Made by a program: the position numbers and the translations under genes. DNA of 64,000 nucleotides, taken from positions 54,342-118,341 of the forward strand of contig CADCJO010000003.1 in the NCBI GenBank assembly GCA_902801765.1. The letters are read 5' to 3'. Under the pieces are notes generated by a model, which worked only from the letters and a program-made list of their open reading frames with translations, did no database searches and had not been told where the DNA came from. Below, in pieces: positions 4,470 to 60,865 of the stretch. Each line of letters starts with the position of its first letter. The stretch's first letter is position 1. The stretch comes from an uncultured Eubacteriales bacterium (GTDB lineage: Bacteria; Bacillota; Clostridia; Christensenellales; Aristaeellaceae).

Positions 4470-4583
4470 TGAGTGTGGAAAGTGAAGAGTGGAGAGTGGA
4501 GAGTAGAGAGAAGAGTAAAAAGACAGCCATATTGATAATCTGTATAAATCTTAACTCTTCACTCTTCACTCTCCGCACTCACT
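4470..4583. repeat. Heptamer inverted array, locus B (ABC exporter/murA)
   Basis: Left arm 4470-4515 consists of 7-bp units AGTGTGG, AAAGTGA, AGAGTGG, AGAGTGG, AGAGTAG. Right arm 4551-4583 is the inverse (TAACTCT, TCACTCT, TCACTCT, CCGCACT). The core between them is about 35 bp and AT-rich. The whole locus fills the gap between the exporter stop and the murA start. Confidence 0.8.
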
Positions 4584-42042: not shown

Positions 42043-42879
42043 ATGGGAATTGAATTGGTCATCAAAATCGGCTCCATGGCGCTCATCCGCCGGGAGGACA
42101 ACGATATCGACTACAATATTTTCGCGCGTCTGAGCAGCGAGCTGCGTCCCGGGATGCTGCTGGTATCCTCCGGCGCCACGGAAATCGGGCGGCTGGACTA
42201 CTACAAGCGCACCGGCTGCACCCTGACCGGCGACCCGGAGCAGAACAAAACCGACTACTCCGCCCAAGGCCAGGCCATCCTGATGGAAAACTACCGTCGG
42301 TTTGTCAAGCCGGAATATGGCATCCGGCAGGTATTGGTGGAGCACAACCACTTTAACGACCCGCAGAAGCGCGCCCACCTGTATGGGCTGCTGCAGCGGG
42401 CGGCGGCACAGCGGGCCATCCCCATCATCAACTACAACGACTGCGTCAGCGACGAGGAAAACCGCAAGATGGAACTGGCCACGCTCCAGTCCCAGCATCC
42501 CGAAACCCAGGTGGTGGAATGCGTGGACAATGACGAAACGGCGGCGGTGATCGCCGAGCTGGTGCAGACAAAGAAGCTGATCCTGCTCACCTCCACCGAT
42601 GGGATCTACGCCGACCCCAAGGACCCCGAAACGCTGGTGAAGGAAATCACCGCGCCCACAGCCGAAACGCTGGAAGAAAGCGTCCGCGAATGGCAGACCC
42701 ACTGCGTCGGCGCGTCCCGGGCAGGAGCCAACGGCGCGGGCGCCAAGCTGGAATACGCCCTGCGCTGCGCCAAGACCGGCGTGGAGGTCATCATTTCCCA
42801 CGCCCGCAACCCCATTGCCAAAATCCTGTCCGGCGAAGCCAGAAGGACGAGGATTTGTATTGAAGGTAATAGGCAATAG
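42043..42879 (+). CDS. Amino-acid kinase family protein (ProB-like, no PUA domain)
   Basis: 278 residues of the aspartate/glutamate/uridylate kinase fold: VIKIGSMALIRR at the N-terminus, LLVSSGATEIG, IINYNDCVSDEE, and the ATP-site LLTSTDGIYADPKDP. The last is close to glutamate 5-kinase, but the GTGGM-type loop is replaced by ANGAGAKLEYALRC and no PUA domain follows. The substrate is therefore uncertain (glutamate, another amino acid or a phosphorylated intermediate). 18 bases after thrH. The C-terminal residues GNRQ-stop are read from heptamer locus G. Confidence 0.8.
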   Translation: MGIELVIKIGSMALIRREDNDIDYNIFARLSSELRPGMLLVSSGATEIGRLDYYKRTGCTLTGDPEQNKTDYSAQGQAILMENYRRFVKPEYGIRQVLVEHNHFNDPQKRAHLYGLLQRAAAQRAIPIINYNDCVSDEENRKMELATLQSQHPETQVVECVDNDETAAVIAELVQTKKLILLTSTDGIYADPKDPETLVKEITAPTAETLEESVREWQTHCVGASRAGANGAGAKLEYALRCAKTGVEVIISHARNPIAKILSGEARRTRICIEGNRQ

Positions 42880-42931
42880 GCAGTAGGCATTAGGTGACAG
42901 AGATTCGTGCCGAAAACAATTGCCTAATGCT
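42868..42931. repeat. Heptamer inverted array, locus G
   Basis: Left arm 42868-42898: TAGGCAA, TAGGCAG, TAGGCAT, TAGGTGA. Short right arm 42919-42931: TGCCTAA, TGCTAAA. Core about 20 bp. It supplies the stop codon of the kinase gene. Confidence 0.75.
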
Positions 42932-44983: not shown

Positions 44984-46012
44984 CTATGCCTCGTTCAATT
45001 CAGACATCGCGTCATAGCAGAAGCTATCGGCCAGGCCTTCGTCATAGCTCATGCCAAGTCCCGTTTCATAGGCGTTCAGGGCCGCCTGAATCACCCTTTG
45101 GTGAGTGGGGTCCATGTGTTTCAAAGCCCATTCTCCGCCTTCTTTTTTGCTCAGGAACAGGTTTTCCCGCTTGAACGCCACACCCCGACAGAGGTTCAGA
45201 ACATAATACACCGGTTTTTCATGCAGATGCTCCGGCGCGTCCTGCACATCCTGGCAAATGGAGGACAGCACGTCCTCCCGCCTGGGGCGGTCAAACACGC
45301 GCGGCACGCTGGGCCCGTACAAAGAAATGCCGAACGCATGCAGCGCGGCGATGTGGCAGGTCAGATCAGGGTCTTCCCCGTGCATCCTGGCACAGAAGCC
45401 CCGGGCGTCGCGCTCGTAATCCCGCTGATGATAGTTGGAGTAATGCAGTTCAAAGGGCACGGGATAAGTCAGATGGCTGCAATGCTTTTCCAGCAGCACG
45501 CTCATCTCGAATCCTTCGGGCGGCGCTTCCGCGCCGAGGGAGTACAAAAGCTCCACCAGTTCAATTTTCTTTTCGATGGGGATGCGCTTTCGGACAACCA
45601 CGAGGAAATCAATATCGCTTCGCTCCCACAAAAAGCACCTGGCTGCCAGCGAGCCATGCAGATAGACGCCCACCAGATTGTCCTGCAGGATGTACAGATA
45701 CCGTTCCTTGACATACCGAACCAGGTTGACCGCATCGGAATAGTTCTTGGGCGGAAGCACGCCCCCCTCCAGCAAAGCGGAGATGGAGTCGAACGCTTTC
45801 TGCTCGTCTTCTCCTTCGACGGTTAATAATACCGGGTCCCTGCCCGTCACGCCAAGACACAGGATGCCCAGCATGGACTTTCCATTGAAATGGCGGTTCA
45901 GATGCTCAAACTCGATGCGCGAAGAAAACTGGGTGGCCGTGTTCACCAGCTGTTCGCTTTGTTTTCTGCTCATCGGCGTCACGCCGGACAGGTTCAGCGC
46001 CTTTTTGATCAT
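44984..46012 (-). CDS. Crh/HPr-like domain fused to an AadA-like nucleotidyltransferase
   Basis: 342 residues. Residues 1-85 align without gaps to HPr/Crh: Phe29, then GKSMLGILCLGV with Ser46 in register, and EGEDEQKAF near residue 67. The phosphotransferase His15 is replaced by Ser, so PTS transfer is impossible while Ser46 phosphorylation by HPrK remains possible, as in Crh. A nucleotidyltransferase follows: GVYLHGSLAARCFLWERSDID gives GS (120-121) and DxD (Asp133, Asp135). The C-terminal part (about 185-342) resembles the DUF4111 helical domain of AadA. The ATG at 46012 is preferred to the TTG at 46027. It is 73 bases after whiA, the place of crh in Bacillus. Substrate unknown. Confidence 0.82.
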   Translation of the reverse strand: MIKKALNLSGVTPMSRKQSEQLVNTATQFSSRIEFEHLNRHFNGKSMLGILCLGVTGRDPVLLTVEGEDEQKAFDSISALLEGGVLPPKNYSDAVNLVRYVKERYLYILQDNLVGVYLHGSLAARCFLWERSDIDFLVVVRKRIPIEKKIELVELLYSLGAEAPPEGFEMSVLLEKHCSHLTYPVPFELHYSNYHQRDYERDARGFCARMHGEDPDLTCHIAALHAFGISLYGPSVPRVFDRPRREDVLSSICQDVQDAPEHLHEKPVYYVLNLCRGVAFKRENLFLSKKEGGEWALKHMDPTHQRVIQAALNAYETGLGMSYDEGLADSFCYDAMSELNEA

Positions 46013-46056
46013 CTTTCCGTTCCCCAATCCTGTCTTTGGTTGTCTCAGTCGAAGTC

Positions 46057-46098
46057 CTTAATCCCTATTCCCTGATCCCTAATCCCTAATCCCTAATC
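46057..46098. repeat. Heptamer array, locus H (whiA end, single arm)
   Basis: CCCTATT, CCCTGAT, CCCTAAT, CCCTAAT, CCCTAAT. The minus-strand reading supplies the last codons and the TAG stop of whiA. No second arm was found. Confidence 0.7.
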
Positions 46099-47012
46099 AA
46101 TTCCATCAGCCGCCGCATCCGATGGTTCGCGCCGGATTTGCCGACAGGCTTTTGAAGCATCTGGCCCAGCTCCTCCAGCGAGGCTTCCGGGTGCAGCATC
46201 CGCAGCCTGCCGATTTCCTGCAAATCCTGAGGCAGACCGCTCAGGCTGTGGGCCAGGGAATAAGCCACGATCGCTTCGGCCTGGGTTTCCCCAACGGACA
46301 GCTGCTTTTTCAGGTTCGCTTCGTCACAGTTGCGGGCGCGGTTGGCCCGATTGCGCGCGTCCCGGCTGATCCGGGTATTTTCCATATTGAGCAAAGCGCG
46401 GTGCGCTCCCATCAGGGCCAGGCAGGCCACCACGTCGTCTCCCTTGCGGATGTATACAATTTCAGTGTCCCGACGGTGGGTGGTTTTGGCTTCGATGCCG
46501 CTTTTGGTCAGGATCTTCAGCAGCGTATCAGACCGCGTCTCGGAGGAAACGAATTCCATTCGGTATTCCTGATCAGGCGACGTGATGGAGCCGCCGCCCA
46601 GGAAGGACGCGCGGATGAACGCTGCGCGGCAGCAGCGCCGAGTCATCACCGCCCGGGGGATGCCTTTGAACACCGGCCCCGCATCCGAATCCCGGATCAT
46701 GCGCAGGGCGATCAGCAATCTCCTGCTTTCCGTTTCCGGCACGGTGAGGATCGAAAGCCGCCTGCCGCCCAGCCGCTTGTGGCGGTTGAATTCCAGCTGC
46801 GGCGTTATTTCCATGCGGTGCTTGAGCAAAAGGAAAATCCGTTTTGCCAGCGCGGGGTTTTCCGTTTCATATACGACCCGAACCTTTCCGCGCCCCGTCA
46901 GCCGCAGCGAGCCGCAGCACTGGGTAAGCGCGCTGAGCTCGGAAAGCATACAGCAGGGTTTTTCGGGCTGTACGCGCTGCAATTCTTCTTTCACATCGCC
47001 GGAGAAGCTCAT
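46086..47012 (-). CDS. whiA: DNA-binding protein WhiA
   Basis: 308 residues. LAGLIDADG-like N-terminal domain (MSFSGDVKEELQRV, then RAAFIRASFLGGGSITSP) and a C-terminal helix-turn-helix (LEELGQMLQKPVGKSGANHRMRRLMELI). WhiA controls sporulation in Streptomyces and affects division and chromosome segregation in Firmicutes. Its start overlaps the murB stop. The terminal IRD-stop lies in heptamer locus H. Neighbouring yvcK and rapZ, usual between murB and whiA, are absent. Confidence 0.95.
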   Translation of the reverse strand: MSFSGDVKEELQRVQPEKPCCMLSELSALTQCCGSLRLTGRGKVRVVYETENPALAKRIFLLLKHRMEITPQLEFNRHKRLGGRRLSILTVPETESRRLLIALRMIRDSDAGPVFKGIPRAVMTRRCCRAAFIRASFLGGGSITSPDQEYRMEFVSSETRSDTLLKILTKSGIEAKTTHRRDTEIVYIRKGDDVVACLALMGAHRALLNMENTRISRDARNRANRARNCDEANLKKQLSVGETQAEAIVAYSLAHSLSGLPQDLQEIGRLRMLHPEASLEELGQMLQKPVGKSGANHRMRRLMELIRD

Positions 47013-47914
47013 GCGTCCTCCCCCACGATACGGACTTCAGGTTCCAGCATGACCCCGTACTTATCCATCACGCGTTCCTGCACCAGCCGCATCAGCGCCA
47101 GGAAATCAGAGGCCGTTGCTCCGCCCCGGTTGATCAGGAAGCCGGCGTGCTTTACGCTCACCTGCGCCCCGCCGACGGTCATGCCCTTCAAGCCCGCGCC
47201 TTCGATCAGCGCCCCCGCGAAATGACCGGCAGGGCGCTTGAAAAAAGACCCGGCGCTGGGATACTCCAGGGGCTGTTTATCTTTACGCCGCGCGGCATAA
47301 TCCCGCATGGCGGCTTCAATCTCTTTGGGATCGCCAGGGTTCAGGCGAAAATGCGCGCCGAGGATGATCCATTGTTCGTCCATCGCGCGGGTGTGGCGAT
47401 ACGAAAAATGCATTTCGCTCCCGGGAATATCGCGCACGGCGTCCCCCGCCAGCACCCGGACAAATTCCACTGTCTGCCCCAGCTCGCCGCCATAAGCCCC
47501 GGCATTCATGTACACGCCGCCGCCGACGGAGCCGGGAATGCCCTGGGCGAATTCCAAACCGGTGAGAGACGCTTCCTGCGCCTGGCGCGCCAGTGTGCTC
47601 AGCAGCGCGCCGGCCTGGGCGTACAGACAGCTGCCTTGGCGTTCGATCGCGGAAAAGGCTTTCCCCAGCCGAATCGCCAGTCCGCGGAACCCGCCGTCCC
47701 GCACCAGCAGGTTGGAGCCATTGCCCAGCAGCAAAACAGGCATTCGCGCCGCCTTCGCTTCCCGAATCAGCAGCAGCAGTTCTTCTTCTGTTCTGGGTTC
47801 CGCAAAATAATCCGCCGGACCGCCCACGCGCAGGGTGGTAAACTTATCCAAAGGTACACATGCAAATCCCTGTGTTCCTTCACTTGTCCGGTTCAATCTT
47901 TCAAAAAAGTCCAT
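47009..47914 (-). CDS. murB: UDP-N-acetylenolpyruvoylglucosamine reductase
   Basis: FAD- and NADPH-dependent second step of UDP-MurNAc synthesis. 301 residues of the type IIb form: TTLRVGGPADYFAEP, the FAD-binding LLGNGSNLLVRDGGFRG, GIPGSVGGGVYMNAGAYG, and the catalytic YPSAGSFFKRP with Ser. First gene of the murB-whiA unit, behind a TTGCAG-17-TATAAT promoter. Confidence 0.96.
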   Translation of the reverse strand: MDFFERLNRTSEGTQGFACVPLDKFTTLRVGGPADYFAEPRTEEELLLLIREAKAARMPVLLLGNGSNLLVRDGGFRGLAIRLGKAFSAIERQGSCLYAQAGALLSTLARQAQEASLTGLEFAQGIPGSVGGGVYMNAGAYGGELGQTVEFVRVLAGDAVRDIPGSEMHFSYRHTRAMDEQWIILGAHFRLNPGDPKEIEAAMRDYAARRKDKQPLEYPSAGSFFKRPAGHFAGALIEGAGLKGMTVGGAQVSVKHAGFLINRGGATASDFLALMRLVQERVMDKYGVMLEPEVRIVGEDA

Positions 47915-49054: not shown

Positions 49055-49217
<163 letters not shown>

Positions 49218-57230: not shown

Positions 57231-57343
57231 GTGGAGAGAGTGCAGAGTACAGAGTGCAGATAAAGAAACCAAAATTCAGGAGTGCTTTTTTGTCAGGCAT
57301 ACTGCATCTGAACTCTGTACTCTGTACTCTGAACTCCCTACCC
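57231..57343. repeat. Heptamer inverted array, locus J
   Basis: Left arm 57231-57260: GAGAGTGC, AGAGTAC, AGAGTGC. Right arm 57300-57342: ACTCTGT, ACTCTGT, ACTCTGA, ACTCCCT. Core about 40 bp. It directly follows the helicase stop. Confidence 0.8.
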
Positions 57344-60739: not shown

Positions 60740-60865
60740 GAGTTCTAAGTTTTAAGTTCCAAGTTCTAAGTTCCAAGCATTGAACAAAACAGCAGCAGAA
60801 AAAAACATCGCCTTCGTCTGACAGCATTTGGCTAAAAACTTAGAACTTGGAACTTAGAACTAAAT
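60740..60865. repeat. Heptamer inverted array, locus L (ruvA/ruvB)
   Basis: Left arm 60740-60778: AGTTCTA, AGTTTTA, AGTTCCA, AGTTCTA, AGTTCCA. Right arm 60832-60865: AAAAACT, TAGAACT, TGGAACT, TAGAACT. Core about 54 bp. Same heptamer type as loci C and E. Confidence 0.85.

Follow-up and report, generated by a model that had tools for sequence, protein, structure and literature searches.

A gene in the window (the whole 64,000-nucleotide stretch of DNA analysed here) encodes a two-domain protein in which a Crh-like HPr domain is joined to a nucleotidyltransferase of the AadA fold. Full-length homologs of this fusion were shared by 31 genomes, and in all of them the HPr half lacks the active-site histidine and keeps Ser46. 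HPr-domain fusions as such are already known; among the open-access papers listed, judged by titles and openings of abstracts, none reported an HPr-nucleotidyltransferase fusion. The gene, its parts and its two upstream neighbors are located as follows:

44984-46012, minus strand: the whole fusion gene (342 amino acids; ATG at 46012, stop codon ending at 44984), Crh-like/HPr domain plus AadA-fold nucleotidyltransferase
45758-46012, minus strand: HPr/Crh-fold domain, residues 1-85 (Pfam PTS-HPr; Foldseek matches to HPr and Crh)
45875-45877, minus strand: codon of Ser46, which in HPr and Crh is the residue targeted by HprK (NGKS in 31 of 31 fusions)
45743-45757, minus strand: linker, residues 86-90, with a boundary set by us (block 81-90 of the structure model has a mean pLDDT of 69)
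44987-45742, minus strand: AadA-fold nucleotidyltransferase, residues 91-342 (Pfam AadA_C; Foldseek matches to ANT(9)/AadA)
45608-45616, minus strand: codons of Asp133-Ile134-Asp135, the metal-binding DxD motif (Asp47/Asp49 of AadA; both Asp in 31 of 31)
45506-45508, minus strand: codon of Glu169 (catalytic base Glu87 of AadA; 31 of 31)
46086-47012, minus strand: whiA, directly upstream of the fusion gene with a gap of 73 bp (WhiA Pfam domains; synteny in 21 fusion loci)
47009-47914, minus strand: murB, upstream of whiA (MurB_C, E = 1.5e-38; synteny in 21 fusion loci)

The initial annotation of this DNA had read residues 1-85 as an HPr/Crh domain numbered without gaps and the remainder as an AadA-type nucleotidyltransferase with a DUF4111-like end, and had proposed HMM searches and a structure prediction as checks. 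Both domains proved significant in Pfam and in a Foldseek search with the predicted structure. PTS-HPr matched residues 19-82 (E = 5.3e-14; 52.5 bits, cut-off 23), and the doubt that residues 1-85 might lack an HPr-fold match did not materialize. The predicted end was recovered as AadA_C (DUF4111; PF13427) on residues 239-317 (E = 4.4e-20; 72.2 bits, cut-off 22.2). Two further Pfam models stayed below their cut-offs, namely Polbeta on residues 111-156 (24.7 bits, cut-off 26.9) and NTP_transf_2 on residues 106-150 (15.2 bits, cut-off 21). The HPr numbering was confirmed by phmmer, which aligned residues 8-82 without gaps to the identically numbered residues of a solved HPr (3le1); Phe29, Ser46 within NGKSMLG, and Ser at position 15 were all found where they had been placed, as was the HGS...DID signature (HGS at 119-121, DID at 133-135). 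ANT and HPr models of NCBIfam also matched the protein, all 16 below their curated cut-offs.

The AlphaFold2 model, calculated with the 31 fusion sequences as input, had a mean pLDDT of 93.3 and a pTM of 0.75, the latter limiting how far the domain interface can be read. In it, HPr-type strands and helices extend to residue 82, followed by a block of lower confidence (residues 81-90) and the transferase. In a Foldseek search of the PDB with this model, ranks 1 to 13 were chains of ANT(9) and AadA (E = 3.0e-15 to 2.5e-13), and the N-terminal part retrieved HPr and Crh chains (best HPr, E = 6.0e-6; Crh in complex with CcpA, E = 8.7e-5).

Full-length fusions were found in 31 of 308 genomes of the family: 28 of the 29 genomes of the window's genus (its own included), one of genus g50 and two of genus g39. 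All 31 are free of stop codons and share 45-88% identity with the window protein. The HPr half is common to all of them, and relatives with an N-terminus unrelated to HPr, a case that the initial annotation had allowed for, did not turn up. It had likewise considered that two genes might have been joined by a frameshift or misassembly. The state of the window's assembly (81% complete, in 93 contigs) could be cited for such an artefact; it is refuted by the 31 stop-free full-length relatives at that range of identity and by their one origin on the trees described below, which leave it a negligible probability and uphold the gene as a genuine fusion. In 29 close pairs dN/dS ranged from 0.02 to 0.28 for the HPr half and from 0.05 to 0.14 for the transferase half; these are rough values from Nei-Gojobori counts, several dS being near or above 1. 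By this measure, both halves are under purifying selection.

Outside the family survey, a profile of the 31 fusions was run against 391 genomes of the class and 396 of the order. Among the matches listed, one was full-length in the class set (the window's own genome) and two in the order set (the own genome and G143), the others covering one half; both sets are even draws in which the two fusion-bearing sister genera did not appear. A search for related loci confirmed 14, of which seven were full-length and represent the same DNA as seven genomes already counted. These seven are labelled Clostridia, Clostridiales or Christensenellaceae, and several come from rumen or reticulum.

The initial annotation had placed the gene in the crh position after whiA. 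This placement holds in the window and in 21 of 21 inspected fusion loci (22 in all), where murB and whiA precede the fusion. According to the available part of PMC10714963, crh directly follows whiA in B. subtilis. The slot 3' of whiA was also inspected in 29 fusion-free loci; it held a free-standing HPr-like ORF in 19 (14 genera) and none in ten, a share that is biased, as ten of the 29 loci (L088, L090-L097, L100) had been picked for an HPr match. Among the ten loci without an HPr-like ORF, two lie less than 1 kb from a contig end and one belongs to G167, the only genome of the window's genus without the fusion. Neither half of the fusion is present in G167, and the ORF directly after whiA (locus L121) is, judged by eye, presumably guaB. 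None of the 19 free whiA-linked ORFs has His15 (Q, T, D, N, P, S or I at this position) and all 19 have Ser at position 46, with a degenerate patch in G092. A MATE gene was not a constant operon partner, its presence and direction varying among fusion loci, and no constant neighbor of the AadA-like relatives without HPr was seen in the 28 loci listed.

As a separate observation on the window, several short arrays of 7-nt tandem repeats, differing in their units, occur at 4471-4510, 42864-42894, 46055-46098, 49055-49127, 57307-57336, 60741-60777 and other positions. One such array (TCCCTAA) takes in the end of whiA and the greater part of the gap that separates it from the fusion gene.

In a tree of the transferase halves, the 31 fusions fell on one side of a branch (support 100/99) and 38 HPr-less relatives, including one pair of identical sequence, on the other. 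A WhiA tree with 36 rows united the 22 fusion rows and G167 in one group (99/94) with G167 nested inside; this tree was rooted at its midpoint, and several outer rows sit on long branches. The trees fit a single origin of the fusion followed by inheritance in the whiA slot. The simplest history would be one gain and one loss, an AadA-like enzyme having become attached to a resident Crh-like gene.

Within the HPr half, N43, G44, K45, S46, L48, G49 and L51 were invariant in all 31 fusions, with Met at position 47 in 30 of them. Arg occupies position 16 throughout and Phe or Tyr position 29; position 17 is variable, Arg not being conserved there. Position 15 is occupied by Ser, Asn, Thr or Asp and never by His, so that PTS phosphotransfer by this domain is impossible. 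HprK recognises the Ser46 patch in HPr and Crh. As far as conservation can tell, the pattern is that of a domain whose retention depends on Ser46 rather than on His15, in agreement with the Crh-like character assigned at the outset.

Within the genus, HprK scored 368-386 bits (cut-off 240) in 28 of 29 genomes. It also exceeded its cut-off in 29 of 33 further family genomes, most of them without a fusion; these 29 include all three fusion genomes outside the genus (G193 with the gene split in two at contig ends). The initial proposal to look for hprK was thus answered positively for the genus and negatively for the window's own assembly, in which PF07475 gave no match; absences in this search weigh little, since its control matched in three genomes out of 14, Bacillus subtilis not being among the three. 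When the own assembly was compared with 16 kb around hprK of the near relative G156, 34 short or weak matches were obtained, the best of about 500 bases at 69% identity. An assembly gap is the simplest reason for the missing gene, next to which a true loss of hprK from this genome may be considered. As HprK is common in fusion-free genomes, G167 included, its presence provides no specific link to the fusion.

High-scoring PTS HPr (at least 89.7 bits) and high-scoring Enzyme I (382-390 bits) were found in the same ten of the 29 genus genomes; one Enzyme I match was checked and passed TIGR01417 (384.6 bits, cut-off 341.7). Neither protein was detected in 18 of the 28 genus genomes with a fusion, many assemblies being incomplete. 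PEP-utilizer matches of lower score in other genomes, none above 264 bits and some fragmentary, are taken by us to be dikinases. Eleven of the 14 high-scoring PTS HPrs were translated (loci L046-L055 and L074; positions 1501-1740, in L074 1501-1734). All contain the active-site His and none has Ser46, position 46 being Lys in ten and Asn in one, a second copy. HprK therefore has no Ser46 target in these proteins, and a role for Ser46 would fall to the fusion or to a short HPr-like protein. Such a short ORF (about 75 amino acids), with a KSILG patch and a shortened N-terminus devoid of the His15 region, was present in 26 of the 29 genus genomes, and the patch was found in six of six translated copies (L082-L087). 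This protein may be the substrate of HprK instead of the fusion; G167 possesses HprK and the short ORF and lacks the fusion. The ccpA model TIGR01481 was not passed in any of the 29 genomes (best 229 of 442 bits; the control passed in 2 of 14), and proteins below its cut-off occurred in all 29.

AadA residues, with roles as given in PMC6065190, were mapped by MAFFT onto the 31 fusions and 18 relatives without HPr. The nine ATP/Mg and catalytic positions, equivalent to Ser36, Ser46, Asp47, Asp49, Glu87, Asp130, Arg192, Lys205 and Tyr231, are present in every fusion. Trp112 is found in none, though the column after it contains an aromatic residue (His, Tyr or Trp) in all 31; this shifted residue could possibly replace Trp112. 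Asp182 is kept in two fusions and Glu183 in none; the position of His/Asn185 is Tyr in all 31. The 18 relatives without HPr likewise have Tyr at 185 (18 of 18) and no Trp112, and five have Asp at 182. The best ANT model, ANT_9 of NCBIfam, scored 69.5 of the 340 bits required. In the available part of PMC6065190, Glu87, Trp112, Asp182 and His/Asn185 are named as determinants of spectinomycin recognition in AadA, and a third class within this architecture is described, in which the N-terminal ATP/Mg residues alone are retained and which may act otherwise. By its residues the fusion would be nearest to this third, uncharacterised class as far as it is described there, yet the C-terminal ATP contacts are also kept. 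The designation as AadA-type thus stands for fold and catalytic residues and fails for the spectinomycin/streptomycin substrate residues of ANT(3'')(9)/ANT(9) (Trp112, Asp182 and His/Asn185), whose loss makes an antibiotic of that class a less likely substrate. Most AadA-like relatives without HPr stand alone; members of the subfamily carry an APH kinase domain in one genus (L099, 2431-3891, minus strand) and GNAT domains in two others (L167, 630-1862; L172, 2022-4175). These fusions speak for small-molecule chemistry.

The reading that we prefer, and to which we give roughly even chances, is that the protein is a catalytically complete AadA-fold nucleotidyltransferase equipped with a Crh-type domain that HprK can address, with a small-molecule substrate other than spectinomycin or streptomycin, and that phosphorylation of Ser46 changes its activity or partners. 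At high levels of glycolytic intermediates, Ser46 of the fusion would be a substrate of HprK, and Ser46-P would alter how active the attached transferase is or which partners it has. The transferase would move a nucleoside monophosphate onto a hydroxyl group of the small molecule; AMP would be transferred if ATP is used, as in AadA. The initial annotation is supported in part: its assignments of fold, position and fusion hold, and the carbon-dependent switch through Ser46 that it put forward stays a proposal. As a tentative and somewhat doubtful extension, the jobs of HPr may have been split in these bacteria, the PTS HPr keeping His15 and losing Ser46 and Ser46 signalling having moved to the Crh domain of a nucleotidyltransferase, so that carbon status would switch metabolite tagging even where no PTS was detected.

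Other explanations have to be weighed against this one. An intrinsic aminoglycoside or aminocyclitol resistance enzyme, with the HPr domain carried along because the enzyme had become established at that locus, is suggested by ANT(9) and AadA as nearest named families, by the intact catalytic residues and the aromatic one column past Trp112 in all 31 fusions, and by the joining of some relatives to GNAT or APH domains, drugs being among the molecules that such enzymes modify. We regard it as unlikely, because the protein lies far under all ANT cut-offs, the recognition residues are lost (Trp112 and His/Asn185 in all fusions, Asp182 in all but two), the gene is inherited vertically in a housekeeping locus, and purifying selection acts on the HPr half too, where Ser46 is invariant.

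Rather improbable is a bifunctional housekeeping protein, the HPr half of which would do the work of Crh by binding a CcpA-like repressor or a metabolic enzyme, for instance MgsA, while the transferase acts as an independent enzyme. The Foldseek match to Crh of the CcpA-Crh-DNA complex, the free Crh-like protein in the same slot of 14 sister genera and the ccpA-model matches below cut-off in every genus genome are consistent with it, and Crh regulates MgsA in B. subtilis according to the available part of PMC10714963. However, the ccpA cut-off itself was passed in none of the 29 genomes, in a search whose control passed in two of 14, and no split gene was seen among the examined descendants of the fusion's origin, G167 being without either half. 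A third possibility is that the transferase modifies a protein recruited through the HPr domain, which might be HprK, WhiA, the HPr half itself or some other partner. HPr-family proteins function through docking to other proteins, and the substrate pocket is unlike that of drug-modifying ANTs; the fold is nevertheless that of small-molecule ANTs, and the relatives without HPr mostly stand alone, some being fused to GNAT or APH, which makes such a switch very improbable.

If the Ser46-dependent switch on a small-molecule transferase is real, HprK/Ser46 signalling would have a direct enzymatic output within one polypeptide chain that is simple to assay, and there would be a reason for the upkeep of HprK where the PTS HPr has no Ser46 or went undetected. 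The fusion also provides a handle on an uncharacterised class of AadA-like proteins that are easily named resistance proteins and may tag other molecules. In the group of gut bacteria that carry it, the combination may tie the nucleotide tagging of small molecules to carbon supply.

Among known systems, FPr and DhaM likewise combine an HPr domain with other domains in one chain. In these PTS proteins the HPr domain sits with PTS domains and keeps its active His, whereas the window fusion has neither; the FPr model of NCBIfam matches it weakly. With AadA/ANT(3'')(9) and ANT(9) the fusion shares the NTP_transf_2 plus AadA_C (DUF4111) fold, the ATP/Mg residues and the catalytic base, but not Trp112, Asp182 and His/Asn185. 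Bacillus Crh is a free protein of about 85 residues with Gln15 and Arg17; the fusion differs from it in its length of 342 residues, in having Ser, Asn, Thr or Asp at position 15 and a variable position 17, and in the attached enzyme of about 250 residues. What it has in common with Crh of Bacillus subtilis is the HPr fold, the absence of His15, the presence of Ser46, and a gene located right after whiA (B. subtilis gene order as given in the available part of PMC10714963).
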